Under the pieces are notes generated by a model. That model worked only from the letters and a program-made list of their open reading frames with translations, was not told the DNA's origin and searched no databases. Position numbers and translations under genes: made by a program. DNA of 43,232 nucleotides from Eubacteriales bacterium (GTDB lineage Bacteria > Bacillota > Clostridia > Oscillospirales > Acutalibacteraceae): the NCBI GenBank assembly GCA_029225565.1, contig JAQXWS010000034.1:1-43232 (forward strand), read 5' to 3'. How positions within the stretch are numbered: the stretch's first letter is position 1; every line of letters starts with the position of its first letter. This document shows, piece after piece, positions 1,641 to 27,958 of this stretch.

Positions 1641-4600
1641 TTATGATTTTGTGGTTACAGACTTCGCCTTTGACCAGCTTGAGTAAATCTTTGTAGCCTT
1701 GCCGTTAATTTTTACTGTCTTGTAGGTACGAACGCGAACATAGTAACGCTTCTTTGCCCTAAGCTTTGATACAGTCTTTGAGGTTGTGCCGGTCTTGCTG
1801 ATGGTCACAGTCTTTGGACTGCTGAACTTTCTGCTGGTACTGTACTGCACCTGGTAACCGGTGGTCTGTGTAGTACGCTTATACCACTTTACAGTAAACT
1901 TCTTTGAGCCGGCTTTCAGCGAAGAAATGCTGGTTGACTTAGGCTTGATTGTGAAGTACAGGGTCTTTGTACCGCTGTACTTACCTCTGAATCTTACTGT
2001 CACCTTATACTTGCCAACATACTTGCGGCCTTTAGCATAAGACACAGTATAGTCCGTATTCTTAACAAGCTTCTTACCGGTTCTGTCCTTTACGGTAACG
2101 GTTGGTGTCTTAGTCTTGCCGTTGTAGATATACGATGTACCGCTAAGTTTAACCGAGCTGATGCGGGCGATGGTCTGGGTTGACTTGACAGTGCCGCATA
2201 CGGAACACTTGGTTACTATCTTGCCTGCGGCAGATGTTGTTGCCCTGGTGGTATAAGTCTTGTAGGTATGGGCAAGCTTTGGTATTGACTCGGTCTTTGT
2301 TACTTTACACACCTTGCAGGTATAGGTCTTTACGCCGGTTGAGGTACAGGTCGGTGCCTTTGTTACCACGCCGCTATTGTAGGTATGGGGCAGCTTGGCA
2401 ACCTCCTCCTGTCTTACCTCGTGATCACAACATAAGCATTTATATCCTTCTGTCCAGCCAACACTGAAGCAGGTTGGCTTTACTGCGTCACTTGTCTTCA
2501 CATTTGTGTGGTTACATGTTACTGTTGCTTTAAACGAAGCGTCGGACGCCGGGCCGTAAACCATTGCTGTGATGAATATCTGCTCGCCTGCCTTGAGCTC
2601 ATAGACCATTGTCTCTTTTCCGGGTTCAAAATAAAAGTCATCTCTCGCAGTATTTGATGCAACAGCAAAAATACTAATACCGTTCATATCACTGATAGTT
2701 GCGGTGTAGGTTCCGTCCTGAGTAGCAGTAAAGCATGCTGTTGACAATTGAGATGTTTCACTAAAGGTGCAGGTTATGCTTTGGTTTAATTCAACATCGC
2801 TTACAAAAGGCTCCTTGTGTCCGCACTCAACGCAAACGCCTACCGGATCTTTATGCTCAGTCATTTCGATTTCTGCGTCTTCACCTTGGGCTCCGCAGAT
2901 TGCGCATTTTGTTTTTGCAAGTCCCTTTGAGGTGCAGGTTGGTGCTGTAATAATTTCATCATTAACAAAGGAATGAGTACACTCCACACCTTCTTCCAAA
3001 TCTATTGAAACAAAGGTATTGCCTCTATTATTTGCATATGTCTCAGCGGTGGAGCCGGTGTGACCGTAAATTGTAGCAGAGTCATAAACAAAATAACTTG
3101 GTAATGTAGTGTCTTTATTGTTAATTATGATTGTTTCAACATTTGAGTCAGAAAATGCATTACTGCCTATTTTAGTAACTGAGGCAGGAACATCAACATA
3201 ATAAATACCGCAACCGTAAAAAGCTCTATCGCCTATTGTTTCAAGTGTTGAGGGAAGCTTAACCGAGAAGAGCTTATCACAATATTCAAATGCATATTCA
3301 TCTATTGTTTTTAATCCTTCATTTAATTCAACCGAGCTGAGATTCTTACAGTATTCAAAAGCATAACGACCGATATATTCAACTGTTGAAGAAAGCTTTA
3401 CTCCCGAAATCAAGGAAGCATAGAATGCATCAAATCCAATTGATTTAACGCCTTCAGGAACAACTAATGTTTCTGTTAATGAGGGAAGAGTATAGATAAG
3501 GGCAGTTCCATCCTTTGAACAAACAATATTATCAACCGACTTATATGATTCATTTGCATCAGCAATGCTGATTGATTTCAAATCATAGCAGCAAGCGAAT
3601 ACGGAGCCGTTGAAATATTTAACGCTTGCGGGAATTGTTACCGATTCCACGGCAGTATTTCCGAAAGCCCAATCATGTATATTCTCAATGCCTTCATTAA
3701 GTATTATTGTTTTAAGATTTCTGCAGTCACAAAATGCTTCTTCATAAATTGTTTTAACAGAGCCTGGAATTGTTATGGATTCAATTGCAGTACCGGAAAA
3801 AGCGCTGTAATCGATATAATCAACACCTTCACCAAGCGTTACTGTTTTAAGATTTATGCAGTTAGAAAATGCATCTTTATCAATTGTTTTAACAGAACCG
3901 GGAATTGTAACGCTTGTTAAATATTCACAATCCTCAAAGACACTTTCTGCAATATATGTTACGGGAATGCCATTTATTTTGCTGAGAATTGTTACATCGG
4001 TAGGAGTGTCGAACTTACATCCTTGGACATAATAAATATCGTTTTTTGTGTCGGCATCGGTATCTTTAAGATAGACAACACCGTTGTCAACATATGCTTC
4101 GTTAAAATCAATATGAACATTGAATTGCTCATCTACTTTTGTCGGGTCTACATAACTAACTGCAAAATAAACAGTTTCTCCCTCAGAGGCACAATAATCA
4201 ATACGACAGTTTAGATCTTCACCGCCATCATCATCTGACGAAATTGGATTTTCAGTATTAATATTTCTTGACGAAAAAAGGGAACCATAGGTATCAATGT
4301 CACCGTCACCTGTTGTGTAAAATGTAAATACACCGTCTTTCTGTGCAGTGGCCTTATAAAAAAGATATCCGCCTTCATCCGAAATGCTGACATTCTCATC
4401 TACAAAGGCTGTTGGGCTGTCTGCCGTAACCGTTGCTTTAATAGGTACTACATAATTTGGATTTGCGATACCGCAAACTGCGCATGTAGCATTATTCTCA
4501 CCGAAGCTGTGACCGAGTGCAGAGTTTTCCTCTGTTCTGCTTACGAATTCACCGCAGGCACACTTTGCACTTTCAGTGCCGTTTTCGGTACAGGTTGCAT

Positions 4601-7109
4601 TGCCGTCCGATACATAGTCACCGTAGCTGTGGGTATGTTCTGTATCAGGCTCGGCATAACCACAGCCTGCCTTTACGGCAACAACCTTAGTTATCTTAAA
4701 GCCGTAATATTCAGTCGAACTGTCGGAATGGAAATAAATCTTAATATAGTCACAGTCAAATGTATATGTTTTACCTGCAGCTGCAGTGCCTTCATATTTT
4801 GCTAATTGGTTTCCGTTTTTGTCATAAACCCTTAGGTAATCATAGTTTGATTCTGTCTTAAACTGATCGTCAAAGGTAATGGAAATGGTATCTGCACCGG
4901 GATAGGAAAGCTCATAATCTTCGTTAGTATTGCTTTTATAATTATGCTCCGACTCGGGAAGATTTTCGGTTTCCTCAACAACAAATGCAAAGTTTTTGCA
5001 TCTATGATGCTCGATGGTTTTGTCTTTGCTGTATGTTGTTACAACCTCGTGGTCAACCATATTGGTTTCGTTACGGTTTTCCGTTGTGTTGCAAATTGTG
5101 CAGGTGTATAAATCGCATCCCTTTGCATAGCAGGTGGGCTCAACGATTTTTGTAAACACGTAGTTATGATCCGCGTATATTGGGGTTCCTTCAACATTTT
5201 CATACTTTACTTCCAGGGGCTCACCCGGTGCGCCGATGCATCCCGGATAAACACTGTTATCATATACTCTGTCACCGTTCAATACAGGGGAGGTCTGTGT
5301 ACCAATCTTCTGTCCCCAAATTGAACCGTCATAAACCTTTTCGCCAACCTTGTAGCCTTGAGAAAGCAAATATGCCACTTTACCGGTTGCAATTTCTTCT
5401 GCAGTTTTATTCATAAATTTATCAGCAGAAGAAGAGCTGTTTATATATCCTGCCTTCAGGCTGCAAGCATCTGAATTGTTGTAGCAATTATAAGCACGAG
5501 CACGGTCAAGCAATCCTATTATACTGCCACTTGTTGAGTATTCCGATATTACCAATCCGTCATTATAGCAGTTTGCTATAACACATTCCTTGCCTTGATC
5601 GTAGTTATTGGTATTACAAGCTTCGGCACCGCATATACCACCGGTCCATTCTCCGCCTTTGACAGTTGCCGAGTTTTTACAATTAGTTATATATCCGGCT
5701 TCCAAAAATCCGCATATACCTGCAATGCTCCTTCCACCTTGAATATACGAATCCGAAAGACAAACATTAGAAATATTAGAATATAGGCAGTATCCAAACA
5801 ATCCTGCATAATATTCGGAAGCCTTATAAAACAAACCACTGATTGTATGGCCTTGACCGTCAAAGGTTCCCTTGTAAGCCTTATTGTCATCCCTACTTGA
5901 GGGATTGTATCCAATAGGCTTCCAAGCAACAAAGTCACTTGTCTCATCAGCAACAGAGCCATCTGCCTTTAATACATTACGGTTTACGGTAATATCTGCA
6001 GTAAGCTTTGCATTGGCACTTGTGTTTTTAGCAGTACCGTCGGTTAATGTGCCGTTAACAAGGCCTGCAAACCAATAAAGTTCGCCTGCACTTGAAATTT
6101 CATACGGGCTTTCAACAGTACCGTCGCCGTTTGGCTTAACAGGTGTGCTGTCTGCATTTAAGCAACGGGTGCAATATCCGTCAACATATTTGTGGCCCAA
6201 TGCAGTAACATCAGAATTATCAATGCTTCTTGTTATGTTACAAACTGAGCATTTTTGATTGATTTTTTCATTTGCAGCACAGGTTGCAGGTTTTCTGTCA
6301 ACCTCTGTCCAAGTATGGCCTAACGCAGGCGCGCCAGGGTCATTGACTGTTTGTGTTGCATCACAAACAGAGCATTTTTGATTGATTTTTCCGGTTTGAG
6401 TACAGGTTGCAGGAGTTTTGCTTTCCTCTGCCCAAGTATGCCCTTTTGCATCCTCGGTAATCATTTTGTATGTAAGCGAGCAAACGCTACAACTTTTTTC
6501 TACATAGCCGTAATTTGTACAATCTGCTTCACCAGTGCTGACAACTGTTGTATTATGCTCACAATCGGTAAGCACAAATTCACTCAGCTGCATGCATTTT
6601 ACGGAGCCTGAATTCTTTGTGATTTCAAGCTTAAAATACTTGTACTCAGCATCTGTCATATCACAGGCGAATGAATATGTGGTTTTGTTTGTATTCTTCA
6701 GGACGGTATCGCCAATAACCTTGTGGATTACATCCCAAGTACCTGTCTTTGTTTTGGTGTTATAGTCGTTACAGCCGTAAAGAGTCCAGTCCTTAGGATT
6801 TCTTGAGGTTTCGGTTGCGGTATCGTCACCGGTGGACATTTGGTAACCGCTGACCTTAATTGCACTTGAAGCCTCAATAACTATGTAAGCGCTGGAAAAA
6901 TTGGTAACACACCATTTTGTGTCCACGCTACCGTCAATTAGCTTATCGCAGTTTTCTGTTCCGCCGGCAGAGCTTGCACCGGCTGTTCCGTCAAGTGCTG
7001 TAAAGGTTACGCCCTCGTATGCAAATGCGGTGACAGGACATACTGACACCACCATAAGAATACTCAGCACAATACTCAACATCTTTTTTAATACGCTTTT
7101 GTATTGCAT
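1641..7109 (-). CDS. Large secreted BspA-like multidomain Cys-rich surface protein (1822 aa)
   Basis: Secreted adhesin-like protein. Approximate residues: signal peptide 1-30 (hydrophobic core, TAFA cleavage site); discoidin/F5-8C-like domain 34-185; Cys modules of the form TCxxxGxxxxxCxxC followed by H-x-aromatic, 186-325; GLUG-like beta-helix region 326-620 (WTGGICG, AGICGF); more Cys modules; CUB-like domain 715-815; PPC-like domain 890-1000; about eight BspA-type LRR_5 repeats 1035-1365 (TIPGSVKTIxxxAFxxC); a second PPC-like domain 1450-1540; Cys modules to 1640; a YNGK..P/TVxVK repeat domain 1645-1720; terminal Fn3 domain 1725-1822. There is no LPXTG, SLH or membrane anchor; the strongly basic C-terminus may hold the wall non-covalently. 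The start is set by GGAGG at 7 nt. It has its own promoter with LytTR-like sites, next to a LytTR gene. Ligand unknown. Confidence 0.9.
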   Translation of the reverse strand: MQYKSVLKKMLSIVLSILMVVSVCPVTAFAYEGVTFTALDGTAGASSAGGTENCDKLIDGSVDTKWCVTNFSSAYIVIEASSAIKVSGYQMSTGDDTATETSRNPKDWTLYGCNDYNTKTKTGTWDVIHKVIGDTVLKNTNKTTYSFACDMTDAEYKYFKLEITKNSGSVKCMQLSEFVLTDCEHNTTVVSTGEADCTNYGYVEKSCSVCSLTYKMITEDAKGHTWAEESKTPATCTQTGKINQKCSVCDATQTVNDPGAPALGHTWTEVDRKPATCAANEKINQKCSVCNITRSIDNSDVTALGHKYVDGYCTRCLNADSTPVKPNGDGTVESPYEISSAGELYWFAGLVNGTLTDGTAKNTSANAKLTADITVNRNVLKADGSVADETSDFVAWKPIGYNPSSRDDNKAYKGTFDGQGHTISGLFYKASEYYAGLFGYCLYSNISNVCLSDSYIQGGRSIAGICGFLEAGYITNCKNSATVKGGEWTGGICGAEACNTNNYDQGKECVIANCYNDGLVISEYSTSGSIIGLLDRARAYNCYNNSDACSLKAGYINSSSSADKFMNKTAEEIATGKVAYLLSQGYKVGEKVYDGSIWGQKIGTQTSPVLNGDRVYDNSVYPGCIGAPGEPLEVKYENVEGTPIYADHNYVFTKIVEPTCYAKGCDLYTCTICNTTENRNETNMVDHEVVTTYSKDKTIEHHRCKNFAFVVEETENLPESEHNYKSNTNEDYELSYPGADTISITFDDQFKTESNYDYLRVYDKNGNQLAKYEGTAAAGKTYTFDCDYIKIYFHSDSSTEYYGFKITKVVAVKAGCGYAEPDTEHTHSYGDYVSDGNATCTENGTESAKCACGEFVSRTEENSALGHSFGENNATCAVCGIANPNYVVPIKATVTADSPTAFVDENVSISDEGGYLFYKATAQKDGVFTFYTTGDGDIDTYGSLFSSRNINTENPISSDDDGGEDLNCRIDYCASEGETVYFAVSYVDPTKVDEQFNVHIDFNEAYVDNGVVYLKDTDADTKNDIYYVQGCKFDTPTDVTILSKINGIPVTYIAESVFEDCEYLTSVTIPGSVKTIDKDAFSNCINLKTVTLGEGVDYIDYSAFSGTAIESITIPGSVKTIYEEAFCDCRNLKTIILNEGIENIHDWAFGNTAVESVTIPASVKYFNGSVFACCYDLKSISIADANESYKSVDNIVCSKDGTALIYTLPSLTETLVVPEGVKSIGFDAFYASLISGVKLSSTVEYIGRYAFEYCKNLSSVELNEGLKTIDEYAFEYCDKLFSVKLPSTLETIGDRAFYGCGIYYVDVPASVTKIGSNAFSDSNVETIIINNKDTTLPSYFVYDSATIYGHTGSTAETYANNRGNTFVSIDLEEGVECTHSFVNDEIITAPTCTSKGLAKTKCAICGAQGEDAEIEMTEHKDPVGVCVECGHKEPFVSDVELNQSITCTFSETSQLSTACFTATQDGTYTATISDMNGISIFAVASNTARDDFYFEPGKETMVYELKAGEQIFITAMVYGPASDASFKATVTCNHTNVKTSDAVKPTCFSVGWTEGYKCLCCDHEVRQEEVAKLPHTYNSGVVTKAPTCTSTGVKTYTCKVCKVTKTESIPKLAHTYKTYTTRATTSAAGKIVTKCSVCGTVKSTQTIARISSVKLSGTSYIYNGKTKTPTVTVKDRTGKKLVKNTDYTVSYAKGRKYVGKYKVTVRFRGKYSGTKTLYFTIKPKSTSISSLKAGSKKFTVKWYKRTTQTTGYQVQYSTSRKFSSPKTVTISKTGTTSKTVSKLRAKKRYYVRVRTYKTVKINGKATKIYSSWSKAKSVTTKS

Positions 7110-7152
7110 AATACTACCTCCTTGTTAAAAATAACAATATATATACTCCTTT

Positions 7153-7181
7153 AGTATATATAACTGCATAATCATTTTCAA
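7153..7181 (-). promoter_or_regulatory. Sigma-A promoter of the surface-protein gene
   Basis: Minus-strand TTGAAA (7176-7181), a 17-bp spacer and TATACT (7153-7158), 44 bp before the start codon. The candidate LytTR sites begin 12 bp upstream of the -35. Confidence 0.75.
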
Positions 7182-7193
7182 CCAACTTGGAAC

Positions 7194-7223
7194 AAAACGA
7201 CAATTAAACGGCGTAAAACGACA
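7194..7223 (-). promoter_or_regulatory. Candidate LytTR binding site: two 9-bp direct repeats 12 bp apart
   Basis: On the minus strand TGTCGTTTT occurs twice (7215-7223 and 7194-7202), separated by exactly 12 bp, with a third CCGTTT between them. The three CGTTT cores are 10 and 11 bp apart, so all lie on one helix face. Paired 9-bp direct repeats with a 12-13 bp gap just upstream of a -35 are the known architecture of LytTR-family (AgrA/ComE type) targets. The neighbouring gene encodes a LytTR protein. Binding itself is inference. Confidence 0.6.
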
Positions 7224-7225
7224 TA

Positions 7226-7254
7226 ACCACCGCATACCCAAAGTGTGCGGTGGT
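7226..7254 (-). terminator. Hairpin after the LytTR regulator gene
   Basis: The 11-bp arms ACCACCGCATA and TGTGCGGTGGT have a 7-nt loop and one G.U pair, and begin 6 bp past the regulator stop. The T-run on the minus strand is delayed (GTCGTTTT), so termination may be partial and the surface-protein gene could receive some read-through. Confidence 0.55.
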
Positions 7255-7259
7255 AAAAA

Positions 7260-8081
7260 TCAATCTTCTGCTGTATTAATATATCTGCCAAGGTACAGAT
7301 TCAACGCCGTTGCTGCGTCATCACTGTTCTGGGTAAAACTAATATCCGAGATGTCAAAAAGGATACATCCGCAGTGGCCGCTGAATGTGGGAAAACAAAT
7401 AATTTTTAAGTAAGTGTCAATCTCGGGACTGTAGTCAATCAGTTCCAGCATTTCTCCGTACAGGGTTGCGCGCTCATAGGCTTTGAGCCACTTTGAGTCC
7501 ATATTACTGAAAATGGCGCCAAAGGAATTGCCTATTAATTGTTCGAGTGGTAGCTTTTCCAGCCTTGCCAATGCGGGATTTCCGTATCTGAATATCCAGT
7601 CAACAGCATGCTTTTTTTCGTCAAAAATCATCTCTATATCAGTAAAGGCAAAGGGCAGATTGTCAAAGCTTTTATAATACTTGCAATACTCGTCCTTTGT
7701 GACAGGTATATTGCCATCAAAAAAGCTACTGACAATACGCTTTCGGATAGTGTGAAACTGATCAATGATTTGTTTTTTCTTGCGTTTTGTGTATTCAAGA
7801 TTTTCGCCGTTAATCAACTCTATTTTGTCATCAATGTTGTGAATGGCCATTGCAGATACAATACATCCGCGATAAACCTCTATAAAATCATCACTCAACA
7901 TATCAGCCAACCGGGAAACGGACATTCTTGTTTTGTATATTTTATTCTTGACGGTATGAATTTCTACGGATTTTCCCGATGTTTGCACATAAATAATTGA
8001 TTCCGTATTTAGCACAACCTGTTTTCTGTCGGATATTATTTTTAAGTATTTTGATTCCTCCAAACCAAACACCTCTGTCAT
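7260..8081 (-). CDS. LytTR-family transcription regulator with C-terminal PAS-like domain (273 aa)
   Basis: DNA-binding regulator. A LytTR domain occupies residues about 10-112 (IIYVQTSGKSVEIH; VYRGCIVSAMAIHNID; NGENLEYTKRKKKQI, the usual nG..l.isrr end). It is followed by a PAS-like sensor at about 125-250 (FAFTDIEMIFD, YGNPALARL, GNSFGAIF). In the common LytR/AgrA architecture LytTR is C-terminal behind a receiver domain; here it comes first and there is no receiver, so the signal is probably sensed by the PAS-like domain or a bound ligand. The ATG at 8081 has no good Shine-Dalgarno. GGAGG lies inside the first codons without a well-placed start after it, so the start is uncertain. It is transcribed toward the large surface protein, its likely target. 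Confidence 0.8.
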   Translation of the reverse strand: MTEVFGLEESKYLKIISDRKQVVLNTESIIYVQTSGKSVEIHTVKNKIYKTRMSVSRLADMLSDDFIEVYRGCIVSAMAIHNIDDKIELINGENLEYTKRKKKQIIDQFHTIRKRIVSSFFDGNIPVTKDEYCKYYKSFDNLPFAFTDIEMIFDEKKHAVDWIFRYGNPALARLEKLPLEQLIGNSFGAIFSNMDSKWLKAYERATLYGEMLELIDYSPEIDTYLKIICFPTFSGHCGCILFDISDISFTQNSDDAATALNLYLGRYINTAED

Positions 8082-8103
8082 TATTCAAATAGTATTCAAC
8101 AAA

Positions 8104-8132
8104 ATTATGCAGTATTATCAACTGTTTGTCAA
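8104..8132 (-). promoter_or_regulatory. Sigma-A promoter of the LytTR gene
   Basis: Perfect minus-strand TTGACA (8127-8132), 17 bp, CATAAT (8104-8109), 23 bp before the annotated start. This makes the leader very short and supports the start at or near 8081. Confidence 0.7.
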
Positions 8133-8248: not shown

Positions 8249-8980
8249 ATGCTCGAAAAAATCAACGAATTCAGCAAGAAGCTTCAGTTTTTGTCCGGCG
8301 CACAACTAAAAATCATCGCCATTATTTCCATGCTTATTGACCATATCAACAAGGCGTTAATATATCCTAATCTGACTTCCTCCCAGGGGTTTCTCGCTAC
8401 GCTGAGCAATGTGTTCGACATAATTGGCAGAATCGCTTTTCCGCTGTTTTGTTTTTTGCTGGTAGAAGGATTTTACAAAACCCGAAGCCGAAAAAAATAT
8501 CTGCTTAATTTACTTATTTTCGGGGTAATCTCCGAGGTGCCGTTTGATATGTTTACCACAGCAAGCTACTTTAACAAAAACTGGAACAATGTTATGTTTA
8601 CTTTAGCTCTTGTGCTGGTGACCATTTGGATAATAGATTTTTTGAAAGCAAAAATGGACAACCGCCCAAAGGTGCTTTGGTACATAGTATCCTTTATTAT
8701 TGTTGGGGTAATGTGCTGTGTGTCCATGGGGTTGGCGCTGGACTACGAGCATCACGCAATACTGATAGGATATTTCTTTTACCTGTTCTACGGAAAGACA
8801 ATTTTTTCAATCCCGTTTGCCTATGGATCCATGTACACCCAGCCCTGGTCTCTGTTGGGCTTCGGACTGACTCTGACATACAACGGACAACGGGGCAAGC
8901 AAAGCAAAATGCTTGGATATTGGTTTTATCCTGTGCATCTGCTGATACTGGGCATACTCAGACTCTGTCTTAATATCTAA
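8249..8980 (+). CDS. TraX-like integral membrane protein (243 aa)
   Basis: Matches the TraX family, named after the F-plasmid protein that N-acetylates pilin. Seen here: the N-terminal signature LKIIAIISMLIDHINKAL (His in the first helix), GRIAFPLFCFLLVEGF, the F/Y-KTRSRKKYLLNL loop and the terminal segment GYWFYPVHLLILGI, with about 7-8 hydrophobic segments in all. Chromosomal homologues without any conjugation genes are common in Firmicutes, and none are seen here, so an acyltransferase acting on a cell-envelope substrate is a better guess than conjugation. It is monocistronic: own promoter, AGGAGG ribosome binding site, and a terminator right after the stop. Confidence 0.85.
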   Translation: MLEKINEFSKKLQFLSGAQLKIIAIISMLIDHINKALIYPNLTSSQGFLATLSNVFDIIGRIAFPLFCFLLVEGFYKTRSRKKYLLNLLIFGVISEVPFDMFTTASYFNKNWNNVMFTLALVLVTIWIIDFLKAKMDNRPKVLWYIVSFIIVGVMCCVSMGLALDYEHHAILIGYFFYLFYGKTIFSIPFAYGSMYTQPWSLLGFGLTLTYNGQRGKQSKMLGYWFYPVHLLILGILRLCLNI

Positions 8981-22599: not shown

Positions 22600-22686
22600 G
22601 CTGGTGTGGCGAAATCGGCAGACGCAAGGGACTTAAAATCCCTCGGTAGAAATACCGTACCGGTTCAAGTCCGGTCACCAGCACCA
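22600..22686 (+). tRNA. tRNA-Leu (anticodon UAA)
   Basis: 87 nt with encoded CCA. Acceptor arms GCTGGTG and CACCAGC pair fully; the D-arm is GCGAAATCGGCAGACGC; the anticodon loop ACTTAAAAT in a GGG/CCC stem reads UUA; a long class II variable arm (TCGGTAGAAATACCGT) follows; T-arm GGTTCAAGTCC. Class II arm plus anticodon make it Leu. Confidence 0.97.
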
Positions 22687-22699
22687 GTAAAGTAAATAT

Positions 22700-22786
22700 G
22701 CCGGCGTGATGGAATTGGCAGACGTGCTGGACTCAAAATCCAGTCCTGGCAACAGGGTGCGGGTTCGACCCCCGCCGCCGGCACCA
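22700..22786 (+). tRNA. tRNA-Leu (anticodon CAA)
   Basis: 87 nt with encoded CCA, 13 bp after the first tRNA. Acceptor GCCGGCG/CGCCGGC; anticodon loop ACTCAAAAT in a CTGG(A)/(T)CCAG stem reads UUG; class II variable arm CCTGGCAACAGG; T-arm GGGTTCGACCC. Its last 20 bases are duplicated 164 bp downstream. Confidence 0.97.
22767..22786 (+). repeat. att-like repeat, copy 1 (tRNA-Leu 3' end)
   Basis: The last 20 bases of tRNA-Leu(CAA), GACCCCCGCCGCCGGCACCA, recur identically at 22931-22950. tRNA 3' ends are the classical attachment sites of integrating elements. Confidence 0.75.
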
Positions 22787-27723: not shown

Positions 27724-27734
27724 TAAAATGTATT

Positions 27735-27958
27735 GACTGGGAGAAGTAACTCAGTGAGCTTGTCAAAGAGAGCAGATGACGGTGTGAATTCTGTACAAGC
27801 AGCTTAGCGAAATGCACCCACGAGCAGCCTGGCGGAAATCAGTATGTCAGGACGGTCGCCCCGTTATAAGCCAAGGCTATATTGGTAGCCGGAGAATAAA
27901 TCAGAGTGGAACCGCAGTTATTATTGCCTCTGTCCTTACGGACGGGGGCATTATTTTT
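27735..27958 (+). promoter_or_regulatory. T-box leader, cysteine specific (specifier UGC)
   Basis: tRNA-sensing leader. Seen: stem I features (GAGAAGTAACTC, AGAGAGC, GGTGTGAA), the specifier region GCGAAATGCACCCACGAG with the Cys codon TGC at 27813-27815, the T-box sequence AGAGTGGAACCGCAG (27903-27917) that binds the uncharged tRNA acceptor, and a terminator stem GCCTCTGTCC/GGACGGGGGC with a T-run (27926-27957). Uncharged tRNA-Cys should favour the antiterminator. It fits the downstream cysE and cysS exactly. The start of the leader is approximate. Confidence 0.92.

Follow-up and report, generated by a model that had tools for sequence, protein, structure and literature searches.

Does the small regulator gene that lies beside a giant surface-protein gene in this bacterium control its neighbor, and if so, through which DNA sites? 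The question concerns one stretch of 43,232 nucleotides (the window) from an Eubacteriales genome placed in the Acutalibacteraceae. A preliminary description, made from the sequence alone, had proposed that a LytTR- and PAS-containing regulator and a set of phased direct repeats form a self-contained, one-component switch for a surface adhesin. We followed up this proposal with domain searches and with comparisons among related loci and genomes. The window also contains two adjacent tRNA genes and a T-box leader (22600-22783 and 27724-27934; Rfam).

The regulator, its relatives, and its neighbor

The two genes and their parts are as follows.

8104..8132, minus strand: putative promoter of the regulator gene, TTGACA-N17-CATAAT (promoter scan)
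7260..8081, minus strand: gene for a predicted one-component regulator (P0001), 273 aa, with an N-terminal LytTR domain, a C-terminal PAS-like domain, and no receiver
7767..8024, minus strand: LytTR DNA-binding domain, residues 20-105 (Pfam PF04397, E 1.1e-10)
7332..7667, minus strand: PAS-like sensor domain, about residues 139-250 (homology to a domain of L064; conservation in alignment A1)
7226..7254, minus strand: stem-loop past the regulator stop codon, terminator-like, with an incomplete T-tract
1641..7109, minus strand: candidate target gene, 1822 aa, with a signal-peptide-like start, a Sad1/UNC- or F5/8C-like domain, LRR_5 (BspA-type) repeats, and fn3

The LytTR domain of P0001 scored 42 bits in the Pfam search, against a curated cut-off of 22.6, and the same domain was matched by 42 of the 43 members of alignment A1. 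It already begins at residue 20, and no receiver domain was found in P0001 with Pfam; the N-terminal LytTR placement without a receiver that had been read from the translation therefore holds. The C-terminal part is less readily classified. It is 33% identical over 128 aa (E 3e-21) to the stretch preceding the GGDEF domain of a GGDEF-EAL protein (L064), and that stretch has a weak PAS_8 match (0.0014), below the PAS_8 cut-off. Searched alone, the C-terminal part of P0001 matched no Pfam family, and the 16 of 43 members of A1 that weakly matched PAS_4 (best 0.0084) do not include P0001. The homology to the pre-GGDEF domain is clear, whereas Pfam matches to PAS families are weak or absent, and the earlier assignment of a PAS-like sensor is best taken as provisional. 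Within this domain, a GHCGC motif is invariant in A1. Among solved structures, P0001 had one weak match (E 0.051), in its LytTR part, to a methyl-accepting/DNA response regulator chain.

The PAS part appears to be the more conserved one, with a mean identity of 0.77 versus 0.58 for the LytTR part and a higher value in 887 of 903 pairs in A1, a difference that may be overstated, as most of the search peptides (four of six) fall in the PAS part. A far more distant protein (L065 1459-2166, plus strand; 23% identity) also has LytTR first, with a weak PAS_4 match behind it, which suggests that the operator-linked group arose later than the LytTR-first order.

One scan of genome contigs yielded 51 related loci, with best segments 48-77% identical and source labels that include Lachnospiraceae, Oscillospiraceae, Eubacterium, Acetivibrio, and Erysipelotrichaceae, among others. 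The 51 loci analyzed here are the window, 49 of the scan loci, and L062; L011, in which the regulator runs off the contig, and L058, which is nearly the same as L045, were left out. Several entries are repeats (L007 = L020, L008 = L056, L006 = L011, L061 = L010, and L063 = L034). The 43 rows of A1 further omit L018, which has a stop inside the matched stretch, as well as L025, L026, and L054-L059. A regulator match was present in 5 of 80 genomes of the same genus, comprising four close relatives and G002 (26% identity, LytTR part only), and in 53 of 398 genomes of a family sample, comprising 4 close relatives and 49 weak matches, most of them over one domain. The distribution of the LytTR-PAS family is patchy and lies mostly in gut-type Clostridia. 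In a tree of the 43 regulators, 17 of 40 inner branches were well supported, with the bootstrap not settled, and regulators with LRR_5 targets (the window, L038, and L053) were scattered over different parts of the tree. Carriage by mobile elements was considered and rejected: the 3 pattern matches in viral_contigs included no relative, and no relative was found among plasmids. One unverified faecal phage record (L090; MT835501.1:38554-51078) encodes part of a regulator relative (46%, 175 aa), surrounded by genes that look bacterial, and may be a mislabeled bacterial contig.

The 1822-aa ORF starts with an ATG at 7109. A crude hydropathy score indicates a hydrophobic stretch at the N terminus of the encoded protein, which also has a strong match to LRR_5 (PF13306, E 4.6e-65); its F5/8C-like match is below the cut-off for that family. 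Judged by its domains, the protein may act as an adhesin. On the other side of the regulator, a TraX-family membrane protein (PF05857) is encoded divergently at 8249-8980 (plus strand).

A paired operator ahead of the surface-protein promoter

In LytTR systems, the sites are 9-bp direct repeats, in most cases separated by 12 bp and located about 10 bp ahead of the -35 box, according to the part of the source available (PMC6193735). The region between the two genes of the window contains the following elements.

7215..7223, minus strand: operator repeat 1, TGTCGTTTT (pattern scan; kept in relatives)
7194..7202, minus strand: operator repeat 2, TGTCGTTTT, starting 21 bp past the start of repeat 1 and 21 bp ahead of the -35 box
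7153..7181, minus strand: candidate target promoter TTGAAA-N17-TATACT, -35 at 7181-7176 and -10 at 7158-7153 (promoter scan; the -10 spacing recurs in relatives)

The preliminary description had reported TGTCGTTTT twice with a 12-bp gap, followed after another 12 bp by the promoter, and had recognized a known LytTR target layout. Both statements proved correct: the pair lies at 7223-7194 on the minus strand, with 12 bp between the copies and 12 bp from repeat 2 to TTGAAA, and paired direct repeats of about 9 bp with a gap of about 12 bp just before a -35 box are the arrangement of PMC6193735, as far as its available part goes. A third CGTTT core had also been noted; its spacing is right (10 and 11 bp), but a middle core occurs in just 17 of 40 accepted operators and marks a subgroup. 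Also in this region is an inverted repeat, ATATATACT-N5-AGTATATAT (7139-7161, minus strand), which overlaps the -10 box and the likely transcription start of the surface-protein gene and which, by eye, is absent from L010 and at most weak in L091.

The operator begins 36 bp past the regulator stop codon, and repeat 1 starts 2 bp past the stem-loop, to which a terminator scan gave no score. This closeness is what would be expected if the repeats were leftovers of a terminator region or a local duplication with no regulatory role. Within the window, the TGTCGTTTT pair at up to 3 mismatches has 1 match versus 0.07 expected. The 1.76-Mb draft genome contains 4 such matches versus 32 for a control pattern read backwards; the window pair is exact, and the other three have 3 mismatches each. 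At one of these three (L004), TTG is in place, but the site lies within an opposite-strand 250-aa ORF and has no -10 box by eye. The exact pair is thus found once in the genome and is not scattered at random. A plain promoter scan of the window was not above chance (6 found versus 5.9 expected), so the case is carried by comparative data.

The sequence downstream of the related regulators showed the repeat pair many times over. For the comparison, an operator was defined as TGTCGWTTY twice with a period of 20 or 21 bp and TTG 20 or 21 bp past the start of repeat 2. At up to 2 mismatches, 33 sites lay downstream of the regulator and on its strand, in 30 of the 51 analyzed loci (673 kb), versus 1 upstream (L019), none on the other strand, and none in each of four dinucleotide shuffles (plus strand). 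Allowing 3 mismatches gave 37 sites downstream, 1 upstream, none on the other strand, and 1 match in the four shuffles. When TTG was not required, there were 37 downstream, 2 upstream, and 2 other-strand matches with up to 2 mismatches, and 49, 4, and 11, respectively, with up to 3; these other-strand matches indicate that the repeat pair alone is less specific. Since these loci also supplied the consensus, more weight belongs to the controls (strand, shuffles, and reversed pattern) than to the count itself.

Among the 48 loci with at least 300 bp of downstream sequence, 32 have an operator (up to 3 mismatches, two spurious sites dropped), and in 27 of these 32 it lies within 200 bp of the regulator stop codon or overlaps it. 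The other 16 have no site under the rule; some show degenerate repeats by eye and others none, and two of these 16 (L020 and L029) have a site elsewhere in the same genome. Altogether, 42 sites were scored and 40 accepted, five unlinked ones included, after those at +770 in L018 and +6936 in L033 were judged spurious. The distance from repeat 1 to TTG was 41 bp in 14 and 42 bp in 26 of the accepted sites, where the rule allowed 40 to 43. The -10 box, which is not part of the rule, matched TATAAT in at least 5 of 6 positions, 16-18 bp past the -35 box, at 29 of the 42 sites versus 7.4% in shuffles. The operator half-site extends to about TGTCGWTTYRYSCC.

A lack of conservation in related loci would have spoken for chance repeats; instead, phase, strand, and promoter position are kept in two-thirds of the testable loci and again at unlinked genes, and the shuffles are nearly empty. 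We regard a chance or structural origin of the repeats as scarcely credible.

Under the full rule, TTG included, just one site lies ahead of a regulator gene. In L019 (2702-2781, plus strand), a pair at up to 3 mismatches, with TTG and a -10-like sequence, directly precedes the regulator, the sole case in 49 loci, and so autoregulation is possible there. For the regulator of the window, autoregulation was considered and rejected, as the upstream region holds no operator pair and its best candidate has 6 mismatches. Operator variation followed that of the LytTR and PAS parts with partial r of 0.20 and 0.19, values reached by 48 and 128 of 5000 permutations; because the two parts track the operator equally, co-variation was not used as evidence.

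Operators apart from the regulator and the range of candidate target genes

Under a strict form of the pattern, 27 sites were found in 17 of 38 regulator-bearing genomes, and the reversed control gave none. Of these, 22 fall within the regulator loci analyzed and five elsewhere; one of the five is cut off by the end of its contig, and the four readable ones are each followed by a gene with a secreted-type start, by eye. In one genome of the same genus (G061), the regulator lies on contig C21, but the operator is found on C1. There, at a distance of more than 77 kb from each end of the contig, it directly precedes an ortholog of the window surface protein (77% identity over the first 185 aa and 81% over 484 aa of the LRR region). 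The operator has thus stayed with the orthologous surface gene while the regulator lies on another contig. Besides the window genome and G061, the N-terminal part of the surface protein is matched in one of the 80 genus genomes (G035; 41%, 135 aa). The G061 ortholog (L091; G061:C1:108000-118500) is 1234 aa long, and its C terminus consists of an SPQTG-like sorting signal, a hydrophobic stretch, and a basic tail; the window protein ends in fn3, without this signal.

Across the genus, four genomes have a close regulator relative, and three of them carry the operator, versus 1 of the 76 others, where the match is T-rich (Fisher p 1.9e-4); the reversed control has 1 match in the 80 genomes. The fourth regulator-bearing genome (G064) has no operator, and its contig ends inside the regulator. 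Random occurrence of the repeats across genomes is not what these data show. In the 398 family genomes, the strict pattern has 2 matches (the window genome and G462) versus 4 for the reversed control, and it misses the regulator-bearing genomes G149 and G199, whose sites deviate, and G098, in which no site was found. The site in G462 (L104; G462:C5:1-10000, at about 2342) has a near-consensus promoter and looks genuine; no regulator was found in this genome, which is 74% complete, and no plus-strand ORF of 90 aa or more begins until about 1.1 kb past the site, which may mean that the target is broken. In two genomes, a second operator lies away from the regulator (L093 3182-7068 and L094 3332-6886, the latter on the reverse strand), before secreted-type proteins with similar N-termini; the reading of the L093 protein is split over two frames.

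These data bear on whether the operator belongs to another LytTR regulator, for example a two-component response regulator, with the LytTR-PAS gene as a bystander. LytTR-type proteins are common in the family, as most of the weak matches in the family sample cover the LytTR part. However, from locus to locus and from genome to genome the operator tracks the LytTR-PAS regulators, with hardly any sites in other genomes of the genus or family, and the window's own genome has no second match to P0001 at E ≤ 0.001. We find control by a different LytTR protein improbable. Comparison at the level of sequence establishes the LytTR domain, the operator and its geometry, and the ties of the operator to the LytTR-PAS family and to an orthologous target.

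The candidate targets vary, including surface proteins, lipoproteins, HD-GYP/EAL proteins, and glycan genes. Pfam searches of 27 of them, a few behind loci with no strict site, gave matches to LRR_5, Listeria-Bacteroides repeats, GLUG, FG-GAP, and lectin/Big_2; to DUF1254 and alkyl-sulfatase lipoproteins, DUF308, eCIS_core, and DUF2304 followed by an epimerase-type gene; and to HD-GYP-type, EAL, and MFS-LuxR or MalT-type proteins. Five of the 27 had no Pfam match. Most have a secreted, lipoprotein, or membrane-type start, judged by eye. The idea of a self-contained adhesin switch is therefore borne out insofar as the operator is kept with the regulator family and with the orthologous surface gene, but the relatives adjoin many gene types, and so this is not an adhesin-only switch.

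Five loci with nearly identical regulators (L038, L044, L045, L046, and L048) differ in what follows. In L044 and L048, an HD-GYP-type gene is directly behind the regulator; in L038, L045, and L046, an extra operator-bearing secreted-type gene and others lie between the two. Pfam searches of the HD genes covered L038 and L045, and the reading frames of L045 look broken up. A tentative extension, about which we are somewhat doubtful, is that the LytTR-PAS regulator, its spread probably being horizontal, reads one gut signal wherever it occurs and that each host attaches its own envelope gene when the operator-promoter unit is gained or inserted ahead of that gene. If this is true, unrelated species would answer one gut signal with different surface proteins, and the five loci look like such an attachment in progress.

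A proposed mechanism and comparison with known systems

Taken as a whole, the locus is likely to encode a cytoplasmic LytTR-PAS one-component regulator that acts on a paired operator and probably activates the surface-protein promoter. P0001 would sense a cue through its C-terminal PAS-like domain and bind the two direct repeats (TGTCGWTTYRYSCC type, 20-21 bp apart) through its N-terminal LytTR domain, probably as a dimer. The repeats end one further step of 20-21 bp before the -35 box, where the regulator would most likely contact RNA polymerase, and the bound regulator would most likely activate the promoter. Across the family, a sensor part more conserved than the DNA-binding part would be coupled to operators before differing genes, often envelope or secreted ones. 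Binding, dimerization, PAS-like sensing, and activation rather than repression are what we infer from these features.

The direction of control is the point on which another reading has to be weighed most closely. A LytTR dimer beside the -35 box could instead block RNA polymerase until a PAS ligand frees the promoter. The window promoter looks near-consensus and strong -10 boxes are present at 29 of the 42 sites, and the MHYT-LytTR protein CoxC represses from repeats overlapping the -35 box, in the available part of its description (PMC11347149). The repeats of the window, however, stop 12 bp short of the -35 box, near the activating LytTR layout in the part of PMC6193735 at hand. Repression in the manner of CoxC is unlikely in our view, though it is the most serious alternative. 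With two repeats phased on the same side of the helix and a single step away from the -35 box, the operator resembles the activating sites in that same excerpt, and we moderately favor activation over repression.

Regulation in these largely uncultured bacteria is little known, and the locus links a regulator, an operator, and targets among them. With an operator this precise, a large part of the regulon could be read directly from the sequence in many members, and given the strongly conserved sensor, a single ligand identification could explain the control of surface genes in many species.

Among the matches listed from open PubMed Central papers, there was no description of the LytTR-PAS regulator, its domain order, or its operator. 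We class it provisionally as a variant of the one-component LytTR regulators with the order reversed. LytTR response regulators of the AgrA/LytR/ComE type have an N-terminal phosphoacceptor receiver, whereas P0001 has no receiver match. The surface protein resembles BspA-type LRR_5 surface proteins in its LRR_5 repeats behind a signal-peptide-like start and differs from them in its added Sad1/UNC- or F5/8C-like and fn3 domains.

Three systems, each compared through the available parts of its sources, are closer. The LRS regulators (HdrRM and BrsRM) likewise are LytTR regulators without a kinase partner that use 9-bp repeats, mostly with a 12-bp gap, near the -35 box (PMC6193735). However, a membrane protein, the product of the next gene downstream, keeps them inactive (PMC6193735), whereas the downstream gene in the window is the candidate target, with its own putative promoter and a secreted LRR_5 product, and the only adjacent membrane-protein gene (TraX-like) is divergent. 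The LRS also autoregulate (PMC6193735), whereas the regulator of the window has no upstream operator and L019 may have one. CoxC is a one-component LytTR protein with its own sensor and with repeats at the -35 box, but its sensor is a membrane MHYT domain at the N terminus, and it represses (PMC11347149). RcoM, a CO regulator, combines a heme-PAS domain and LytTR in one protein and uses phased direct repeats (PMC9670170, PMC4703632, and PMC11347149). RcoM binds heme, of which P0001, known from its sequence alone, shows no sign. The sensor of RcoM is N-terminal and its LytTR domain C-terminal, the reverse of the order in P0001, and whereas RcoM has three TTCNNGCA repeats and CO-oxidation targets, the P0001 family has two TGTCGWTTY repeats and, often, surface targets.
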